The position numbers were made by a program, and so were the translations under genes. A stretch of DNA of 64,000 nt. Source: Gyromitra esculenta. Lineage: Eukaryota > Ascomycota > Pezizomycetes > Pezizales > Discinaceae. The DNA is taken from assembly GCA_038503075.1 (NCBI GenBank), contig JBCAML010000012.1:186001-250000 (forward strand). The letters are read 5' to 3'. This document shows positions 4,540 to 53,844 of this stretch, in pieces; positions within the stretch are counted from its first letter, which is position 1; each line of letters starts with the position of its first letter. The notes below the pieces were generated by a model. It had not been told where the DNA came from and ran no database searches. It saw only the letters and a program-made list of their open reading frames with translations.

Positions 4540-4630
4540 CGACAACGACAAGATTCGAACTTGCGCGCCCGAAGGCATCCGCTTGGCTTAGAATAGCAGG
4601 CGAACGTGTTAACCACTCCACCACGTTGTC
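4540..4630 (-). tRNA. tRNA-Ser(GCT) with a 10-nt intron
   Basis: Minus-strand cloverleaf of 91 nt: acceptor GACAACG pairs with CGTTGTC, discriminator G. The anticodon stem TTCGC/GCGGA encloses CT-GCT-A, then a 10-nt intron (4593..4584) one base 3' of the anticodon, the canonical eukaryotic position. A long variable arm (class II) and T-arm CAAG-TTCGAAT-CTTG follow. Anticodon GCT is at 4597..4595. The class II shape plus GCT gives serine; an intron in tRNA-Ser(GCT) is common in fungi. Confidence 0.9.
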
Positions 4631-4835
4631 TTGTTACTGTAATGCTTCTAGAAGCCTATACTTAGCAGCAGTAACAGGCGGTTGATACTTTACTTACATG
4701 TAGCTAGGAGCACGCCAAGAAAAGGGGGAGTCGTAGTTGTTGAAACAAAAGGTAAAGCTACTCGTGAAGAATAAACCTAAAGGCTACTTTACTTGAGCTA
4801 CACTCCAGAGTCGGACAGCTCGAAAAGACAAAAGA

Positions 4836-4909
4836 TGATTTCGCCCGGGCTCGAACCGGGGACCACCAGTGTGTTAGACTGGTGTGATAACCAACTACAC
4901 CACGAAACC
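4836..4909 (-). tRNA. tRNA-Val(AAC)
   Basis: Minus-strand cloverleaf of 74 nt without intron: acceptor GGTTTCG/CGAAATC with one G-T wobble, discriminator A, D-arm GTGGTGTAGTTGGTTATCAC, anticodon stem CCAGT/ACTGG around loop CTAACAC (anticodon AAC at 4875..4873), and T-arm with the box B sequence GGTTCGAGCCC. It lies about 200 bp from the tRNA-Ser gene on the same strand but is a separate pol III unit. Confidence 0.95.
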
Positions 4910-5710
4910 AGCTGTTGGACGAAACCTCTCCGGGAGTAAAAAATTCTAAATGCCATTAGGTCTAGCATCGCTCTAACGGTGCTAAAATAAATAGACGACA
5001 GAGATCTTGATTTTAGTTAGCCTATAGTTAGAATTGACGTACTCTTTAACTGGTATAGGGTTGGGGCTGGCGTCGTAGTGGGGGATGTGATGATTGCTTT
5101 GTTGATGCAGGCGTGGCCCCTTTATGCCCAACTAATATCTCTCCAGTAGATGCCACCACGAAATTATATGGGCCTAGAGCTGGCTGCTGAGAATTGTGCG
5201 ACTGCAGGTTAGTCTGTCGGGATCGGTCGATCGGAGTCGGTTGGGAGCTGGAAGCCTATGTCCAGCGAGCGCACAAAAGCCGAGTGACCAGCTATGGCAG
5301 AAACAATTCGCCTAACTCCATGGTATTGGTTGCTTTCTTCGGTTAAGTGGACCGCCCTGCAAGACAGGGCTTACAGTTCAATTCCCCCCGAAACCTGAGT
5401 GTTTTCTGCCAACCGCGATAGGACGAAGCCAGTGTCGCGCTGGGAGGGCTTATCGGCAGAGGGCTAGGGTTCGGGACAGGGCGGAGTGTCGTCATCAGAT
5501 AAATAGTGCTGTCCGCCCCTCGGCGCATGTGATACTGTAGAGTAACGCGACTTCACAGCGCCAGCCTCCCCGGCGATCTCGGTTCTGTCCACTAAACGCC
5601 GCACACATCGCCAGCATTTAATCATTCACCCTGTCTGCTCACCTCCCTCTGCTAAGGAGTCCTCTAGAGATATCCGCGATTAAATCGCAACTCGACTCCC
5701 AGAACCAGCA

Positions 5711-7296
5711 ATGACATCGTCCTTTCCCTCGTCTGGCAGCGAAGACGGCGGCGATTCGTACGGCAGAATCAGTTTCAGCGATCTCACGGGCGGATCATAC
5801 GACGCTGGAGTCCCTGACTCGGAAGACCAGTTTCTAGCGGAAGTGGCCGAGCCGTCGCCAAAGCGTTCGCTGCCGCCGATTATCGAGCAGCTGTACTCTG
5901 ACGCGGTTGCGGACCCGCTGCCTCCATCAGCGAGACGGCGGAAACACGAGACTAAGGGCATGGCGAGAGACGGCGCGATCAATGGAGACGGGCATGCCGT
6001 GAAGACTGGGGAGATGTCGACATCCGAGAAGGAAGCAGTTGTCGTGGAAAGGCCAAAACCGAAGGGGAGGAAACGGCCACAGTTAGTACCAGGAGAGAAG
6101 CCGAAACGTCGCAGGTACATTCCTTCCCGCCTTGTTTCCCGCGCGCAAAGCAGAATGCTGACAGCAAGCCCACTAGAATCCGCGTCGCCCCGCTTAAGAT
6201 CCCACTGAAGCGCCGTCTGCAGACCGCTGCCGTCCTCCTGCACGAATTCACCATCCCGCTATACATATCGCTGTTCTGGTTCCTCCTCGCAATCCCGCTG
6301 ACATGGCCCGTTCTCGTCCCCTACCTCATCTACTGCCTCTTCTCCAACGCCCACGTAAACGGCGCCTCCCCCCGTCGCCGCTCCCACTTCCTCCGCAGCC
6401 TCCCCCTGTGGCGCCTCTACACCGGCTACTTCCCCATGCGCCTCCACAAGAGCTGTGACCTCGATACAAGCCGAAACTACATCCTGACCTACCATCCCCA
6501 CGGCATCATCTCCCACGGCGCCTTTGGGCACTTCTGCACCGAGGGCACCACTGGCTTCGAATCCCTCTTCCCGGGATTAACAAACACCCTCCTAACCCTC
6601 GACAGCAACTTCCGTGTCCCTTTCTACCGCGACTACCTCCTCTCCATGGGACTCGCATCCGTGTCCCGCCGCTCCTGCGAAGCCCTGCTTCGCGGCGAAG
6701 GCGCCCGCTCACCACGCACCTTCAGTCTCTGGCGCCCATGGACCTGGTGGCGTCTCGTCCAGCTGCTATTCCACCCCACGCCCACGCCCGCGGTTCCGCC
6801 CGGCGGCCGCGCAATAACCATCGTCCTCGGCGGCGCGATCGAGTCGCTCGAAGCCATCCCCGGCCGCATGGCCCTGATCGTCAAGCGCCGTCGCGGGGTG
6901 CTCAAAATCGCGATCCGCGAAAACGCGGGCCTCGTGCCGGTGATGAGTTTTGGCGAGAACGAGCTCTACGACCAGATGGTGCCGGAGGAAACGAGCTGGC
7001 TGTCGCGGTGCCAAATGGCGGTCAAGAGGGTGGCGGGCTTCACGGTGCCGCTGTTTCATGCCCGCGGGGTCTTCAATTACGATGTCGGATTGATGCCGTA
7101 TCGCAAGGAGGTCAATACCGTTGTTGGGCGCCCGGTGTTCCCGAAGTCGCAGATGCAGGAGCCGCGGGACGACGATGTGGATGAGTTGCAGGAGAGGTAT
7201 ATGGCGGAGCTGAGGAGACTGTGGGATACTTATAAGGATGATTATGCGCTGGATAGAGCGCCGGGTCCGGAGGGGGAACTGAGGTTTGTTGGGTAG
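5711..7296 (+). CDS. DGA1: diacylglycerol O-acyltransferase, DGAT2 family
   Basis: ER/lipid-droplet enzyme making triacylglycerol from diacylglycerol and acyl-CoA. Proposed exons 5711..6114 and 6177..7296; the 62-bp intron has donor GTACAT, branch TGCTGAC and acceptor CACTAG, and restores one frame of 507 residues. Residues 1-135 form a hydrophilic Ser/Pro- and Lys/Arg-rich N-terminal extension. A long hydrophobic hairpin follows (about 154-190), then the catalytic signature YHPHG (HPHG 241-244) with GAFGHF, a GGAIESLEA...PGR block, LAIRE-like KIAIRENAGLVPVMSFGEN and ELYDQ, all hallmarks of DGAT2. The C-terminal half ends at TAG 7294-7296. The N-terminal ORF alone would stop shortly after the intron donor, so the intron is required. 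The symbol is by homology to yeast Dga1; some paralogs of the family use monoacylglycerol or wax alcohols. Confidence 0.93.
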
Positions 7297-14973: not shown

Positions 14974-16765
14974 TCATTTTCTATCCACCCAAGCGCCGAT
15001 TTTCCGAAAATTATACCCGTAAACAATAAACCCCAAAACAAACGCAAAAGACGCACTGCAGAGCACGTTCGTATCTGTAAATGCATCACAAACCCTATCC
15101 CAGCTGACAGCATGGGAGAGTTCTCCCTCATCAAATGAGATTTGCTTGGCTCTGATAGCTGCAATTCCAAAAGCCCCCACTAAGATTTGCACTCCTGCCA
15201 GAATGCCCGTAATCGTGATGGGAGAACTGCCGCCAATATTCCCCCGAAAGTCATCTCGGTATTTCTCCGTTATAACCCTCGTGAACGCGTGAAGCACTAA
15301 TGAAGTCCACCCAGCGTATGCAATAGTAACGCTCCCTGCAAGCAGCAGCGCGATTATACCAATAAACTGGATCATAAACAGTGCCGCAGAAATAAGCTGT
15401 ATAGGGAACAAAGGCTTCGAGCATAACTCCGGGCGCAGCCGTACTGCAGCCGCAGTACGGCCAGTATACGTCGTTGCCTGAACTGGAAACACCCTCCAGA
15501 GCAGCGGCCTCGAAGACCCAGCAATATCAGAAGGCGAAAGTGTGCGCCCAAAACAGCAGCCATAAGAATAGCAGCCAATCCGCGAAAAGGCTTCGAATAG
15601 AGGAAGTACTATCCCAAGCGCGGCCATCATGTCAAGTGGCCGGAGTATGGAATCACGTGACAGGAAAATGCTGATACCGGCTCCTAAGATGCCCCCGTGT
15701 AACCAGAACCCAGGCCTGAATATTGCTGCTACTGGGTCGGAGACAAGTTTTGCTAAGCCGTCTTCAAAGATAAGAGACAGCAACCTTGCACCAAAGACTG
15801 CGCACAGAAGGATACGGCACACTACAGCAGCTACCTTAGAGGACTAGTTGGTGGAGGGGGAATGTGAGCTTGGGAGCTATAATAAAAACCGCAATTTAGA
15901 TAAAACTAACCTCGTCGACATCCGCATAGAGAATTACTGCACCGGACGCAAGAGATCCCAACCCGAGACCCATGAATACGCCATATGCGGTGAAAATATG
16001 ACATCCCACCCGCACATGAGCCGGGTGTTCGGAAACGACATGGAACCAACCCAATTTCGATGACCATTTTAAAACATTATACGCGATAAAGGCAGTATAA
16101 ACCGCGAGCGAAAAAGCGCAAATGATTTGCCTCGAGGTGTCTAAACCTGCGTTCAGAATGAAATAAACCCCGAAAATAGAGCCAGGTGCCCGAGTAGCAG
16201 CATACAGAACAACATTTGCAGCTTCTAGTCGTCTAAACCAATGTGTATTTTCCGCATTGCACCCGTGGGTACCTGCTAGCCATACCAGATCGCTCGAAAG
16301 CTCTGAAACAAGGCCTGCATAAATCCCATATACCGCTCCGAGAGGGATCCGGATTGCGAGGAGACTAATGAGAGAGGCGAGTGACCCAAGATGGTGGTAC
16401 CGATAGAACATATGCTCTCCAAGACGATTAAGTTCCGAAACCCATAAAATGCCACGAGATACCATACAGATCGTCCCTGAGGTAGAGGCCATTCCAGAAA
16501 TACTGTCGGCGAGCTCTGGTTGGACGTTCCATGGATACACAGCTGTATATGCTGCATACCCACAGGTTGGGGCGGAAAAGAGGGTAATCAGAAAGCCCAT
16601 CGCAATTCCAAAATAAGGCAGGTCCTTCCTAGTTGATAAGAGCTTCTGGTAGAAAATGGGGTTCTTCGAGCGTAATAATCGTCTTAGGCCACACTCGGTG
16701 GCATAATATACCGTGAACCAAAAGATAACACCCTCAAAGGTGTTAGGAACAAAAAAGTGATCCAT
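14974..16765 (-). CDS. polytopic membrane protein: TLC-like domain fused to Lgt-like domain
   Basis: Proposed exons 16765..15911 and 15843..14974 around a 67-bp intron (donor GTTAGT, acceptor AACTAG), giving 574 residues. The frame is open further upstream to 17086 but has no ATG before 16765. Residues about 10-235 resemble TRAM-LAG1-CLN8 domains: several membrane segments with FYRYHHLGSLASL (HH 124-125) and VSELSSD (E155). Residues about 258-500 match the prolipoprotein diacylglyceryl transferase fold along its length: TAYGVFMGLGLG, FGARLLSLIF, PGFWLHGGILGAG (H334), FSRIGCYSYGCCFGRT (R373, GCCFG 380-384), FPIQLISA (432-438) and HAFTRVITEKYRDDFRG (about 471-486). The GCC[FY]G form matches a bacterial side branch of Lgt rather than classical NFxNxExxG. 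What is seen: motifs in order in one frame. Inferred: a membrane enzyme acting on a diacylglycerol-type lipid. Substrate unknown. Confidence 0.8.
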
Positions 16766-26358: not shown

Positions 26359-26960
26359 CACAAGGCGAGCAGTATGTGAGGTATACTGGGCTGCCTTGTA
26401 GGGCTCTGTTGGCATTTCTATTTTGTCACGATGCCCGCATAGGTAAACTATGGGCAGGTCTTCAAATTGGCCAAACGTTATGTGAGCCCTCACAGGCTAG
26501 AAGTGTACTTGGCCGAGCTGCGCTGGGCCTTCATGTTATTGAGCTCGGGCTGGAGCTTTGTATGGGTCGGCTAGTTTGCGCTTAAAAGACTGACCGAGTG
26601 CGATAAGAGTGAAAGAGTTTACGCCTTAGGACCGACATCTCTTTCGGCACAGAGGCTATCTCTCTAAATGCGTATAATGTAGTCAATAATTTTGCTATCC
26701 CCGCAAACTTTGGATGATTAGAATATCTTATTACTATTATGCTACTATAATCCACCTGATATCCGCTGTATCCGAAGATTTGCGAAACCGCATATCCCGA
26801 CAGGCGTATTAGGTCGATCAGGCTGCCGCCCAGTGAGGTCGGGTTGCATAGAGACGAAGAGTGATCCGAGCTGTTCGTCCGTTCGAAATTCCCCCACGAC
26901 TCTATCCCCAAGGTTAATGAATCAGGTAATGCATCATTTTTTACAGCAAAATATTTGTGT

Positions 26961-27068
26961 GGGTAAAGCATCAGTAAATGAATCACTATAATGTATGGGT
27001 AAAGCATCAATAAATGAATCATTACTTTGTATGGGTAAGGCATCAATAAATGAATCATTAATTTGTAT
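26961..27068. repeat. three tandem 36-bp units
   Basis: Units at 26961-26996, 26997-27032 and 27033-27068, each GGGTAARGCATCARTAAATG followed by an AATCA..GTAT half. Variation between units is a few substitutions. Part of a wider motif-rich tract reaching 27665. Confidence 0.85.
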
Positions 27069-27234
27069 GAGAAAACCATTGGGAAATGTGTATATTAGTA
27101 GTGGGTAAGGCATCTGGAAAGGCATCTGGAAAGTCGTAATAAGGGAAATCCGATGCCTTACCATCCCTTTACCCTTCCTTTACCATCCCTTTAACTACCC
27201 TAGAAACTCGAAAAAAAAAAACATTTTAAAAAGT

Positions 27235-37883: not shown

Positions 37884-40205
37884 CTAGCAACGATGACTTC
37901 CGGAGGGTGCAGAAGGTATTGTTCCGCCATTGTTCCGATGAAACATTTCCACCAATCTCTTCCCCACAGTCTCTTCCAATTCCGTCCCATCTCTCGCAAT
38001 CTTGACTTCCCGATTCGCATTCCACAGGTTTCGCAGTCCTCTCGTGCGATAGAAGGGCACTCTGGCAGTTGACATCCACTCAACCTTGAAAGGTTTCCCC
38101 CAGGACTTTGAGACGACAGTTGCCTTCTCACCAACATCACCGCCCTCGCCCTTCTCCTGGCTGCTGTTCTCGGGAGCTTCGTCGTCACTCAGAGCCTCCC
38201 AGAAGATGGTGCCACGGGCCGAGTCGTCGATGATGCGTCCTTGAGGCGCTGTGTCTGTGGCTGGAGTATATATCGCTTTTGGAAGATCTGGATCGTCGAG
38301 TTGTTGAGTTGAGGGTGCCCACTCAATGACATTCGACGGGTCTTCCTGGATTGGTGACTTCATCCGAGCGTAACCATAGTATTCTCCGGATTTATTAGCG
38401 GAAAAGATCAGATAAACGTTATCTGCATTCTAAGACGCCAAGAAAATAGATTAGTACATTGGACCATACGTCAATAGTAATAAATGGCTGCCACAAACCT
38501 CAAACGCTTCATTCAACGCAGTTTCATTATGACTTTGCGTCGCCCAAATGCCATTTCGGACACTCAAGTCTAGATCTTCCACAGTCAAACTTTTCACGAT
38601 AAAGATCCTATCTTTACCGGTTTCCCGAGAGGAAGCTCTTGCTCCACCAGGACCAATGGGAGGACTCTTGGCACTTGCTGGGCGAGTTTCTCTGTCAGCC
38701 TCTTTACTTCCTTCATCCCCGCTTGCTTGGGAAGACAGATCGGCTGATAGATCAGGAGATGGTATAGCCGCCACGACGGTAGACGAGGCTGCAGAATTTC
38801 TCCGCAGCCGACACACAAGACGTGTGTTCTGAAACCTCGAGTCATGGAAGCGTGCCATTGCCTCATTGCAAGCTTGTTCTGTTCGGTAGTTGACAAAGGC
38901 ACAGTTGCTCTTCGAAATTAGGAATACACTTTCGATTTCGTCTCTTGCGTCTCTCGAGAAATAATCTTTCAAGTCTACCACTTGCGTCCCCGCTGGAAGG
39001 TTTCCCACCCATAACGCATGCCCTGACTGCTTTGGTTTCCTGGGTGGCCCACGAGGCATCCCAGGATGGAGTGAGCTCGGGGACGCTGTGCTCTCGTAAT
39101 TTCCGGGTGTTGTTGCATTTGTTGTCACACCTGATGTTATTCCTGAGCTGTTAGACTGGGACAGCTCAAGGTACATTGGAAAAGACGCTGGGTAGCCCTG
39201 ACCAGACGGTCTTGGAGACTGCCCGTGCCTGAGGTCATAGTCACCTAAACCTCTTCCGTCCCACTGAGGAACACCAGGATATCCAACGAATGCTATAGCG
39301 GCATCAGTCTCAGAGTCTCGTCTTTTCGGTGGAGAATGTCGATTTGGAACACTATGTCGTCGGATATATGGCACTTTTTGGGTGTGTTTATTCTGGGAAG
39401 ATCCAGCCTGCTGGGCTATCTGCTGATTTGGGGCTTGAGGAGTCATGAAAGCTACTGGGGGGACGTAGTAATATCCGCTCATCTGAGGTGGGCCGTACCA
39501 TTGGGGTGCGAAGTGTGTTTGGGCTGGGCCTGCTGATTGAGGATATTGAGTAGGATAATTGGAAGAATAAAGGCTACCCTGTTGTTGGTGCTGCTGCAGC
39601 TGCAGATCTTGTTGTCCCGTTTGAGCAGGAGACTGGACATATTGCTGTGTATAAGGATCAAAAAAAGTCTGGAAACCAGGAATATGATAATATTGTCCAC
39701 CGCTTGAAGGTGACCCTGCACCACCTTGGAACTGTTGGATATGCTGCTGCGATGGCTGGTATGTAGCTGCTGTCGAAGCCAGTCCTCCCTGGAACCGTTG
39801 TTGATTATGAGGAGGTGGCTGAGCGCCTTGCTGTTGCTGTTGCTGCTGAGGATATGCTGGTAAGGATCTTTGCATGCCTGCCATGTTGAACATCCCTTGA
39901 TGGCTTTGATGCCCTACGGATGTTGTTCTTTGCTGCATATATGGAGCTGGGATATAAATCGGTTGCGTATATCTTGGTTGTTGTGCAGCATAGGGCAGCT
40001 GGACCATAGGAGCCGACATGTTGTTTCCTGAGGCTTGAGCTGATGTGTAACGCTCTGTACTGGAATGGGCAATAACTGGGGGGGCCGAAGTGGAAGATTG
40101 CTGATCCGGAGCTACGCTCTCGTTCTGCGCCTTGTATCCACCTGATGGTGTGGATGAGACTATCAAGTTGCGCGTGGATTCACTAGCCAGCTGCGCATCG
40201 CCCAT
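37884..40205 (-). CDS. RRM and YTH domain RNA-binding protein (putative m6A reader)
   Basis: Binds RNA and, by family, N6-methyladenosine. Exons 40205..38499 and 38429..37884; the 69-bp intron (donor GTTTGT, branch TACTAAT, acceptor CTTAG) lies inside the YTH domain, total 750 residues. Residues 1-330 are Gln/Pro/Tyr-rich and disordered with a polyQ run. The RRM spans about 396-469 (RNP2 LWVGNL 398-403; RNP1 KSNCAFVNY 432-440). The YTH domain starts RIFIVKSLTVEDLDLSVRNG at 533, with cage Trp in GIWATQ (554), then YLIFSANKSGEYYGYARMKSP and KVEWMSTARVPF (W687). About 85 acidic, low-complexity residues separate the MKSP strand from KVEW, where many YTH domains have a short loop. The start at 40205 is chosen because the upstream in-frame ATG at 40241 lies inside a likely 5'UTR intron. 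Confidence 0.92.
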
Positions 40206-40224
40206 TGGTATTCTTGAGATGTGC

Positions 40225-40325
40225 CTACTAGGAAAGATCACCAGTTAGAACTACACACCCACACATTTCCACACGTGTAAAAAGAACAGGTCACCCAGCA
40301 CATCTACAATTCAGTGGCAACTTAC
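40225..40325 (-). other. probable 5'UTR intron of the RRM-YTH gene
   Basis: On the minus strand a consensus donor GTAAGT (40325..40320), a branch-like TTCTAACTGG and an acceptor TTTCCTAG or TAG (ending 40228 or 40225) precede the ATG by about 20 nt. It removes the alternative upstream ATG at 40241. Confidence 0.65.
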
Positions 40326-41310
40326 TTTTTAGAAAGTTAAAATCCAAAACGGAAGGCAAGAAATAAAAAATAAAAATAAGAATAACGGGTGGAGGGAAAA
40401 AAGAGCGGTTGAAGGGAAGAAAAGGAAACGGACAGTCGGAAAATTTGCTGATGGAGGGTTTTTGAGGAAGATCTAGCAGGAGGGGTAGTGAACCGACGGC
40501 TCGTACCGAGCTTATATATCACGACAGTAGTAATGGCCCTTAGGGAGGGGGAGCCCTGAGTACAGCTGCGGTAAGGCGTCAACGGCGAAAAGTGGGAGCA
40601 GAGATATATGTTCGCAGCACAATGGTTCCTGGATTTGCTCGTGTGTTTCTCCCGAGCCAATTGTGGCTTGCAGAATTGTTCCAGATAGAATTGCCTCAGA
40701 CTCGATGATTAACGGGTCGGGAGGGCAGAGAGTGGAAGGACAAAAGACAGGGGAGATGATGTCTCAACCAGAGTCAACATAGATGATAACAAAACTTGTC
40801 TTAAGGATGTCTGAGGGGTGGGTGTGGTGGAGGGGGGTGGGAGTGGGTAAGTCAGGGTGGGAAGCGGTAACACTCGATCACTTACTCGCCAACTCTCTTG
40901 TTCCACTAAAACAATACGAAGAGGAAGGATTGTGGAAGGGAGAGAGTTAATAGAGAGTGATGGATGACGAGAGTAACTTTTTTTTCTTCAAGGGGGATGT
41001 GCAAAGGGATGAAATACCCTGGAGAACACAATGCTTCTAAAAACAAAATCACAAAGCGGAAATTTTGTATGGAGAGAGAAGAGAGAGAAAAAGCACCGGG
41101 ATCAAAGGACGGGGGGGGAAGATGTGCGAACTACTTTTTTTCGGGTGTCTTAGATGTATGTATCGCTCCCGTATCTATCGAAACGGGTCCTTTCTCCACA
41201 CCGAAAGCTGTCACAAGGCGGAACGGGTTAGATAGGTGGTTGAATGACGATTTCAAGGGAGGTGGCGAATCTGATCTCTAACTGCCCGGTTGGTGAACAG
41301 ATGTGGAAGA

Positions 41311-41367
41311 GTGATTGAGTGATTGATTGACTGATTGACTGATTGACTGACTGACTGACTGATTGAC
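41311..41367. repeat. GATT/GACT tetranucleotide microsatellite
   Basis: About 57 bp of alternating GATT and GACT units, differing by single T/C transitions. Confidence 0.85.
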
Positions 41368-41873
41368 CTAATCCCGGGTGATTCTCAGGGACAATACGAA
41401 ACGAGAGTGTGAGAGCCAAAAGGTCAGAGAATCTTGAGGAGTGGAGAGAGTGTGAGCCAAGTATGTATCTCTATGTAGGCATGTATGTATGTAATGTGTT
41501 ACTATGCAGGAAGTGATGGCACAACAAGTAAGAATGTACTTTTAAGGCAAAAGCAGTGCCAGTAGGCGGGATTATAAACGAAGCCCTGGAGGTGAGAGAC
41601 ATGAGGCGTTTTGTGATTTTCGTAGTTGAGGCTGAGAATTGAGATCTCTCGCTGTGGGCGATTGATGGATGGAATGGCCGGCTGAGGGGATGGGCAACAT
41701 TTTTCTTGGGTTGCTTGCGCGGCGATTCCGTAAGTAAGAGCAGCCGCGGAGGTTGACCCAGTCTTTGAACCAGCAAGAGTAAAAGGAAAAAGAGAATACA
41801 GAATCTAGTCGCACGGACTGCACATCTTCTTGCGAACGAAGAAGACGTGCAGATAGATATGGTGGTAGCATAT

Positions 41874-41897
41874 CATGGCATGGCATGGCATGGCATG
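41874..41897. repeat. CATGG pentanucleotide repeat
   Basis: Nearly five tandem copies of CATGG in spacer DNA. Confidence 0.8.
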
Positions 41898-44800
41898 CCC
41901 AGTTGGTAACAGAATTGATGCAGCACAGGTACGGTATTCACATGTGGCAGTGACATGAGGGTATGAGGGAGAGCGGAAATATAAGAAACTGTGGCAAGTG
42001 AACACAACACGCTAAGGCCTTTTACTTCCTGGTTTGCTCGATATCGTGGGACGGTGGGGTCTTGGATAGCATGCGGGCGTTAACGGGCAGGGAATGGAGA
42101 AATTGGATGATGGATGTGGCCAGTGCCAGCACGCAGTGGGTAGGCAGTGGAGCGTACATGTAGTACCCTTGTTATTGCTAACTTCTACCCAGTCTTTTGA
42201 TTAATGTCAAAAAAATTATTGACCATGGTCACATTATTATCGCCATTATTACTATTATCACCATTATTATTACATCCTGCATAATTATTCGCAAGAACAC
42301 CCCCGATGAAGAAAGAGAAAAAAAACCTCCCGAATTGCAAATTCGCCCTCAGGTCTTCCTTCTACTGGTACCGGCAAGCGTCCCGAGGAGGGAAAGCACA
42401 CCCACCCATCCACAAGCCAACGTTCTCGGCCCTGGGGGCCGTTCCTGAGGCTGGCTGACCTCTGAGCTGCGGTGGCGTTCCGGCGCGCGTGTCGCGTCGT
42501 TGCCTACATGCTGCTGCCGACGATTCAATCCGTCAGTAGACTAAACTAAGCTTCGCTTGTTTGCTGGGTTGATGAGATACACGAGAAAGGCTTAAGGAGA
42601 AGAGAAGGGCCGATCCGATTTCCAGGGGACTTATTAGGCTGTGCCCGTGTAGAGTATGTGCGTACATACTGTCCCCCCAACCTAGCGTCTATTAAGCATA
42701 GCACGCGGGACGACCAGAGCGAGAACATGACCATGAAATCCTCTTCTGAGTCTCCCCCTCCCCTCCGAGTCCCTCTCCTCAGGGTAAAAAAAAAATAGTA
42801 AAAGCCGAGGCGGATAAGCATTTCTCATGGGGCGAGTTCTAAGGCTCTGCCCCACCACTGATGAGCGGTGTTGAGAGATCAGATGGCCATGGGTAATAAA
42901 AAATAAATGGAGTCGATACAGAAAGCAGGAAGGATCCTGGTAATTGGCGGAGGTGCCGATCGCCTGGAACAAAGGAAAAAGCATGAGAAAAACAAGAAAA
43001 CGATTGACACTGAAGATCCAAGCGCCATCGTGTGAAGATCGATCAGGTAATAAAAAATAAGGCTCTCCGGCAACCTTTTTTTTTGCTACCCATGTCTGTC
43101 TGTTTGAGCAAGCGAGGTTGAAGTCGATTGGTTGTTCTAGAACATGATTCGAAGCATCGGAGAAATACACGACGATCGGTTACTTTTAGATTTCTCGGCT
43201 TCCGGTAGTGGATATGTGCGAATTGACAAAAAAAACCCCGTTTTTTTCCCTTCTCTCTCTTCATAGAATGTCTTTTAATTGTGCGTACAGTAGGAATTTC
43301 GGTTCACCCGTGATAAGGTGAGGTCAAAGATGGCCAGTACCGGGATGTTAACAATGGCGAACCACTGTTAAGTAAGTCGTCTCCCGCCTGCACGATGAGC
43401 CACACTAGTTCATGCACTGTACCTACAGCAGGGCTAAACAATGGTAATGCTTAGAAATTTACTTACGTTCCCTCTTTGGAGTGGCTAAAAAAACTTGTTA
43501 CGGTCTGTACGTCATTGATGATACATGTAGTTATTTGTGAAATGAGCTATACAATACTGACCTGGGAAACAAGCCCGGTGCCTATCAGACTAAAAGCCTT
43601 GACGATGCCATAGCTATTGTAGAGTATACAATATACGTAGAGTGATTGAGAATTAACCCTTTCAGGCTGTTGTGAGTTTCGCGGGCTAGCAGATACCTAG
43701 AGTACCTATCCGCCTTGCTATCCAAAGAGGGTTTCTCTACCAAACCAGACCGACTATCACCTACTACACACATATCCGGAGTGTCTATTTACGCTCCTCA
43801 ATCCTATGTAGGGAATTGCGATATCACAACAGTAAGTTTCGTCAGTGGCGCATCCACAGAGACACGTAAACGGGTGGCACTAGTCCCAGATGACAGGTGC
43901 GGCGCTTTCCGGATCTTGAATGGACTTCTTGCAAGATCTAGGGGGAAGTTCCGTAGCAGAGCGAATGCTAGCTCATATGTACAAGCTCCACACCACCCAA
44001 TAAACCATCTCGAGATGAATATTCAAATCGCGACAGCAGAACACAACGGGGCTAAAGACAAGAATTGTGACAAGAATTATGGTGAAAAATAATGTAGGCT
44101 GTAACATACATGTAATACTAATCGTTCTATCGCATTGAGTAAGCAGCGTCGATTCGTCCGGTGCAGAGATCCGTGTGGAAGAGGCATGGCTGAATTAAAC
44201 CTTACATGTACCTCCGGAATATCATCCTCCTACGCTATCCTTCTTGAAGCATGTCAAACAGGGATAAATAGTTCGGGGCATAGTTCAGGACATGGTCCGG
44301 CTCAAGGTCAGGGGTTTCTGGACCTTTGTCATGGCAATTTTAATGGAATTCCATTCGGAGAGCTCCATGGGAATCCAATGCCAATATATACGCGCATGGA
44401 CCAATTCTTGTTCCCCACGCAAGTGACCTTTCTACTCCTCCCCCCTGCCTCTGATATAAGACCCAACTTCAAACGTTTTTTTTCACCAACTTCACCTAAA
44501 GTATGATATATACTACGATTCGGCCCATACAGTGAAAGACGTTGGCATCGAACTAATGATATTTTCTCACGAGATAATCCCGTAAGATGCGCCAACCCTA
44601 TTGGCTGTGCGGAGGAGAAGGTGGGTGATCTCAAACATACTCCCCTCCTAGTTTGACTGCATAATAGTGGGGTCAAAAAAAAAAAAACTATACACGGGAA
44701 ATGCCTCCGATGTTCAGTTGCCCATTCTTTATTGCTAGAAAATAATAATATGAAAGTCCTATTAGATAGTTGGGCTTGAAATCCCCCCTCTCCAACCTTC

Positions 44801-53737: not shown

Positions 53738-53844
53738 CTTCCCCGGGAAGGCTTGAACTTCCAACCTCTCGATGCCCCAATCACGAAGAACAACTCACAT
53801 GGTTAATAACAGTCGAACGCGCTAACCAATTGCGCCACGGAGAA
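53738..53844 (-). tRNA. tRNA-Asn(GTT) with a 33-nt intron
   Basis: Minus-strand cloverleaf: D-arm GCGCAATTGGTTAGCGC, anticodon stem TTCGA/TCGAG, loop CT-GTT-A with a 33-nt intron (53806..53774) in the canonical position one base after the anticodon (53810..53808), T-arm GGAAG-TTCAAGC-CTTCC, discriminator G. Acceptor TTCTCCG/CGGGGAA has one G-T pair. The first two pairs are T-A where eukaryotic tRNA-Asn normally starts with G, and both strands are changed together, so pairing is kept. Functional status is likely but less certain than for the other two tRNAs. Confidence 0.82.

Follow-up and report, generated by a model that had tools for sequence, protein, structure and literature searches.

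The 64,000-nucleotide stretch of DNA analyzed here (the window) spans positions 186,001 to 250,000 of contig JBCAML010000012.1 of the ascomycete Gyromitra esculenta (assembly GCA_038503075.1). On its minus strand lies a two-exon gene for one protein of 571 amino acids, in which a TLC-like half is joined to a half related to Lgt, the bacterial lipoprotein diacylglyceryl transferase. The gene runs from an ATG at 16765, consistent with the starts of the homologues, to the last stop base at 14974. Exon 1 (15911..16765) encodes residues 1-285, which comprise the TLC-like half (16031..16765, residues ∼1-245, delimited by the fold of relatives), a linker, and the first LGT helix. A predicted 76-nt intron (15835..15910, GTTAGT donor and CTAAG acceptor) splits the LGT-like half (15115..16018, residues ∼250-525, delimited by PF01790 and the fold of relatives), the bulk of which is encoded by exon 2 (14974..15834, residues 286-571 and the stop codon). 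The coordinates and the intron-joined, two-frame structure agree with the original prediction, which was made from the letters of the DNA alone; its product length of 574 residues does not. That length corresponds to an alternative acceptor 9 nt upstream. A relative represented by two open reading frames (ORFs) (P0055 and P0059), each on a 3,853-nt Logan contig and probably on the same one, shares 63% and 56% identity with the halves of the window protein. Its exon boundary reads DE/VSTAICRIL (the slash marks the junction) versus DE/VAAVVCRIL in the window gene, and the 571-residue form is favored because the boundary residues DE/V are shared.

By profile and by fold, the C-terminal half belongs to the LGT superfamily, but it is not a bona fide Lgt. 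Every Lgt motif named in the original prediction is present, and both comparisons with the family agree: PF01790 (LGT) matches the window protein at an E value of 4.4e-14 (52.8 bits against a curated cut-off of 24.9), and modeled relatives have the Lgt fold and superpose on that of Escherichia coli Lgt (5azb/5azc). The fusion gene gives the sole PF01790 match reported across the 47.1-Mb genome (23 contigs). Exon 2 searched as a single sequence retrieved no PDB chain at E≤1, and a 44-row profile matches E. coli Lgt at 2.1e-10. The half falls in a well-supported branch with the signature RxGCxxYGCCxG (hereafter YGCC), which bears out the unusual GCC-type signature noted in the original prediction. 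An extra C-terminal helix extends past the portion that aligns to E. coli Lgt and is followed by the motif VYGYNFRKIGAW (residues 556-567, 14989..15024).

Five essential residues of Lgt (Y26, H103, R143, G154, and R239 in E. coli numbering) have counterparts in the window protein, as do E243 and R246. The segment RPGFWLHGG (residues 325-333, 15691..15717) contains H331 as the counterpart of H103; the signature RIGCYSYGCCFG (residues 370-381, 15547..15582) contains R370 for R143, C373 for N146, C378 for E151, and G381 for G154; and HAFTRVITEKYR (residues 467-478, 15256..15291) contains H467 for Y235, R471 for R239, E475 for E243, and R478 for R246. Every one of the 25 aligned fusion rows keeps the counterparts of G99, G104, R143, G145, G154, R239, E243, and R246. 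Those of Y26 and G27 are kept in 24 rows, the remaining row having a gap, and H103 is represented by His in 22, Tyr in 2, and Gln in 1. In contrast to bacterial Lgt, the window protein carries Cys for N146 and E151, Tyr for N149, His for Y235, and Ser for G142 and E202; across the fusions, the E151 counterpart is Cys in 25/25 and that of N149 is Tyr in 24 and Phe in 1. The donor-holding residues are kept, and several acceptor-side residues are altered. Part of this evidence weighs against the reading preferred below: all 25 fusions have Cys in place of N146, an essential residue of the E. coli enzyme, and His in place of Y235, G142 is replaced by Ser (24 rows) or Ala (1 row) and E202 by Ser (23) or Thr (2), the NCBIfam equivalog cut-offs for true Lgt are missed (42 versus 334 bits and 40.4 versus 118.9), and three fusions scanned singly (P0041, P0060, and P0064) gave no Pfam match at E≤1. 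In the mutation data reported for E. coli Lgt (PMC4728403 and PMC13251419), E151 and E243 are essential in one setting and dispensable in another. Bacterial Lgt proteins carrying N146C exist, for example in Leptospira, and complement weakly (PMC13251419).

The TLC-like character of the N-terminal half is carried by fold and by residues. In fold comparisons of two modeled relatives (residues 1-245 of one and 1-234 of the other), ceramide synthases match best, and seven membrane helices can be counted in the model of relative P0033, an arrangement shared with Lac1, Lag1, CerS6, and other TLC proteins (TLCD1 and CLN8). The six-helix barrel class common to CerS6, ELOVL7, and HACD4 also includes TMEM120A/TACAN, which has this barrel as well. 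The pair H124 H125 (16391..16396) corresponds by motif and spacing to His211/His212 of CerS6, which lie with Asp242 in that enzyme (PMC11919693), and E155, within SELSSD (residues 154-159, 16289..16306), stands 31 positions past H124, the same spacing as His211 to Asp242. The HH pair, the Glu, and the Asp at D159 are invariant in 24/24 aligned rows. The half differs from ceramide synthases in having Glu for Asp242, an LGT-like partner, and no significant profile match. This last point and others count against the assignment: the Foldseek E values for relatives against ceramide synthase are weak (0.18 to 0.86), PF03798 was found in 0/14 rows of alignment A2 at E≤10, a scan limited by HMMER filters that remove most matches above ∼0.1, and hhalign comparisons of the half with three TLC genes from this genome stayed at control level. 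Over this half, the window protein matched no Pfam family at E≤1. The TLC domain proposed in the original prediction therefore finds backing in the fold of relatives and in the HH and acidic residues, and none in PF03798. The same genome encodes a ceramide synthase near yeast Lac1 (E value of 1.6e-91). Two proteins of Mycena amicta, P0046 and P0049, are TLC-like only; they are 91% identical to each other and ∼50% identical to the N-terminal half of the fusion P0028, and the contigs that carry the three are equal in length.

The fusion itself recurs among relatives. The searches score only candidates sharing most words, so that the match lists are incomplete. The first listed 20 matches, 10 of which span 97 to 98% of the query, and a second returned at least 54, including Mycena, Roridomyces, Favolaschia, Hymenopellis, Mucidula, Moniliophthora, Marasmius, Paramarasmius, and Flagelloscypha. 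From a set of 88 proteins, 19 were removed (mostly N-half-only rows and fragments) and the window gene and six loci were added to give 76 rows; removal of 19 more (near copies, fragments, and four poorly extracted loci) left a 57-row tree. There, the window gene clusters with P0059, P0060, P0062, and P0065 (100/97), 28 Agaricales-type rows form a group apart from it (97/92), and both groups together with P0064 make up a 34-row clade (100/99), some rows of which are C-half fragments. Full-length fusions thus occur in the Agaricales (Mycena, Marasmius, Hymenopellis, and others), in the separate clade of the window gene, and in the AT-rich P0064 (508 amino acids). This recurrence in separate clades argues that the fusion is no gene-model artifact, and full-length homologues support a single protein.

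Next to the 34-row clade branch P0018 and P0019, LGT-only frames that are possibly single exons, and the closest stand-alone relatives come from metagenomes or Logan data. The named bacterium Bauldia litoralis encodes one YGCC protein (L009) and one classical Lgt. It was the 1 relative confirmed among 68 pattern matches in a scan of named genomes. At E≤1e-15, matches appeared in 104 of 398 Pseudomonadota genomes, the strongest being Bauldia at 1.8e-34, followed by one at 2.0e-21; among the 21 loci L009 to L029, only L009 is YGCC; and 397 genomes in the order of Bauldia yielded two beyond 1e-25, the second a classical Lgt by signature. Searches of plasmid records gave no relatives, and those of viral contigs gave no confirmed ones. 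The placements of the Bauldia protein and of the metagenomic protein P0079 are unsure because their long branches meet. The acquisition from bacteria that the original prediction thought probable is not borne out by these data, in which the sole named bacterial relative has a long branch and at least two separate clades contain the fusion.

The membrane orientation of the LGT half was assessed from loop charges. E. coli Lgt has a highly positive cytoplasmic side and a highly negative periplasmic side (PMC4728403). Helices of the P0033 model were projected onto 72 aligned sequences, and for the three internal loops that face the cytosol in E. coli Lgt, the Lys/Arg (K/R) share was compared with that of the opposite side. 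The 33 controls comprised E. coli, 20 loci (L010 to L029), and 12 GCC-type proteins without the Tyr; position 146 is Asn in 21 of them and Cys in 12. The signature pattern failed on 5 of the 20 control loci (L017, L022, L025, L026, and L029); Lgt ORFs were located by profile in 21/21 loci, and rows were grouped by signature, which places P0077 with the YGCC rows. The loop-charge value is ≥0.12 in 33/33 controls and ≤0.08 in all 39 GCxx(Y/F)GCC rows (38 Tyr and 1 Phe), 35 of which fall below zero. A tree built from 46 of these 72 sequences puts the YGCC rows on one side of a single branch (100/98); because of this they are not independent, and the charge shift may be one event. In the N-terminal half, the linker side is richer in K/R by count in 23/24 rows. 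Some values pull the other way: P0040, P0077, P0064, and P0059 lie slightly above zero, the window protein is only mildly shifted (K/R 2/26 versus 12/109), and by density the N-half bias is weaker (20/24 rows). With P0077 among the generic rows, and ORFs taken from 5 of the 21 loci, the groups overlap (highest 0.08, lowest 0.03). The fragment P0074 has 7 side-1 residues and is uninformative for this comparison.

Because the loop-charge bias is shifted against ordinary Lgt-type controls, the LGT catalytic face is predicted to be cytosolic, the opposite of true Lgt, in which it lies outside the cytosol. Ceramide synthases have their C-terminal end in the cytosol. The cavity of CerS6 opens to the cytoplasm, and the seven helices of the N-terminal half would put the linker on the same side as the LGT catalytic loops. 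Both active sites are thus predicted to face the cytosol, with the LGT half inverted relative to bacterial Lgt, and secreted lipoproteins would therefore be no substrate.

From these computed features we infer a chemistry, a coupling of the domains, and a location and acceptor of the enzyme. The reading we prefer, to which we give slightly less than an even chance, is a single lipid enzyme of the endomembranes, probably the endoplasmic reticulum, with two catalytic-looking domains facing the cytosol and diacylglyceryl transfer by the LGT half. The TLC-like barrel would most likely take an acyl group from acyl-CoA onto H124/H125, like the histidine of ceramide synthase, and then acylate a lipid acceptor such as a lysophospholipid. 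The TLC proteins TLCD1 and CLN8 are acyl-CoA-dependent lysophospholipid acyltransferases (PMC11838012), and CerS6 forms an acyl-histidine. The LGT half would most likely grip the phosphate of an anionic phospholipid through the counterparts of R143 and R239 and move the diacylglyceryl group to a nucleophile of an acceptor on the cytosolic side, and the diacyl donor that it uses could be made or remodeled by the TLC-like domain.

Other explanations share parts of this evidence. The LGT half may be a hydrolase or head-group exchanger that frees diacylglycerol from an anionic phospholipid to water or a small alcohol while the TLC half re-acylates lysolipids, with no stable thiol or protein adduct. 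Retention of donor-side residues beside altered acceptor-side ones fits this, as does the slow hydrolysis to diacylglycerol suggested during crystallization of E. coli Lgt (PMC4728403); however, the acceptor-side cysteines, the Tyr, and H331 hardly vary in the form they now have, which hints at a defined acceptor, and we consider this alternative unlikely. We regard as quite unlikely a noncatalytic lipid-binding regulator or sensor built of two former enzymes. The loss of N146 and the Tyr or Gln at H103 in 3/25 fusions would suit it, but HH, E, and D are kept in 24/24 rows and R143, R239, and E243 in 25/25, and the N146C Lgt proteins of bacteria such as Leptospira, weak as their complementation is, speak against reading the Cys as loss of function (PMC13251419). 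For the lipid sensor that the original prediction offered as an option, we found nothing in favor.

The Lgt fold and donor-site residues would also fit a lumenal Lgt-like enzyme in the normal orientation that attaches lipid to cysteines of secreted fungal proteins. The charge bias in both halves, the odd helix count of the N-terminal half, and the acceptor-side changes make it very unlikely. Hardly credible is the wrongful joining of two adjacent genes: the window gene does consist of two open frames linked by an inferred intron, but both halves stand together in full-length homologues (10/20 listed matches, and P0060 and P0064), and the boundary is common to P0055/P0059.

Besides the residue changes, these features set the fungal protein apart from bacterial Lgt: loop charges moved to the opposite side, an extra C-terminal helix and motif, and the TLC-like fusion. 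The stand-alone YGCC proteins (P0018, P0019, P0066 to P0073, P0077, and L009) and the fusion P0079 are alike in signature and charge bias; the TLC-like half was not seen in the stand-alone proteins, unlike in the fungal fusion. By text pattern, the C-terminal motif is present in 9 of these 13 YGCC proteins without the TLC half, and P0072, P0077, P0079, and L009 are negative. P0079, a metagenomic protein of 488 amino acids, carries a PEMT/ICMT-like methyltransferase (PF04191, E value of 1.1e-8) ahead of its YGCC-type LGT half (PF01790, E value of 2.4e-24), a putative second lipid-enzyme partner for the branch by its domain matches.

Elsewhere in the window, a diacylglycerol acyltransferase gene (5956-7296, plus strand; PF03982, E value of 1.1e-76) and the end of the fusion gene are ∼7.7 kb apart; a functional pairing with this DGAT2-type gene was dropped, as distance was its only support. 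An open frame at 38451-40244 (minus strand) encodes RRM_YTH1 and the beginning of a YTH domain, probably continuing in another exon, and the window also encodes an AAA protein with a fungal lid domain. ARAGORN places tRNA genes at 4540-4630 and 4834-4910, and Rfam places them at 4540-4630 and 53738-53844, the latter of 107 nt and possibly containing an intron. A tandem repeat with a 36/72-nt unit occupies 26951-27114, and a 2-kb block at 40001-42000 has marked GC skew (0.286) and AT skew (0.125).

Several database records are titled "Prolipo protein diacylglyceryl transferase-domain-containing," so the LGT domain has already been labeled automatically. In the part of the literature covered, we found no paper on a TLC-LGT fusion or an inverted Lgt; section 13 of a 2026 survey (PMC13251419) places Lgt in bacteria and reports it absent from archaea, eukaryotes being unmentioned there. 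Because the fusion is conserved in fungi and its active sites look intact, a eukaryotic lipid product is predicted for an enzyme family, Lgt, so far treated as bacterial; the predicted inversion hints at a lipid reaction as yet unreported in fungi. If the LGT half of the proposed endomembrane enzyme is truly upside down, a membrane transferase has switched sides with its donor site retained, which would explain why the YGCC branch need not be a lipoprotein enzyme. A bolder and doubtful extension is that YGCC proteins are diacylglyceryl transferases flipped over to work on the cytosolic leaflet and that fungi joined one to a TLC-type acyltransferase, giving a single enzyme that builds a diacyl donor and transfers the diacylglyceryl group to a cytosolic thiol or other nucleophile, which would be a lipid or protein modification not yet known in eukaryotes.
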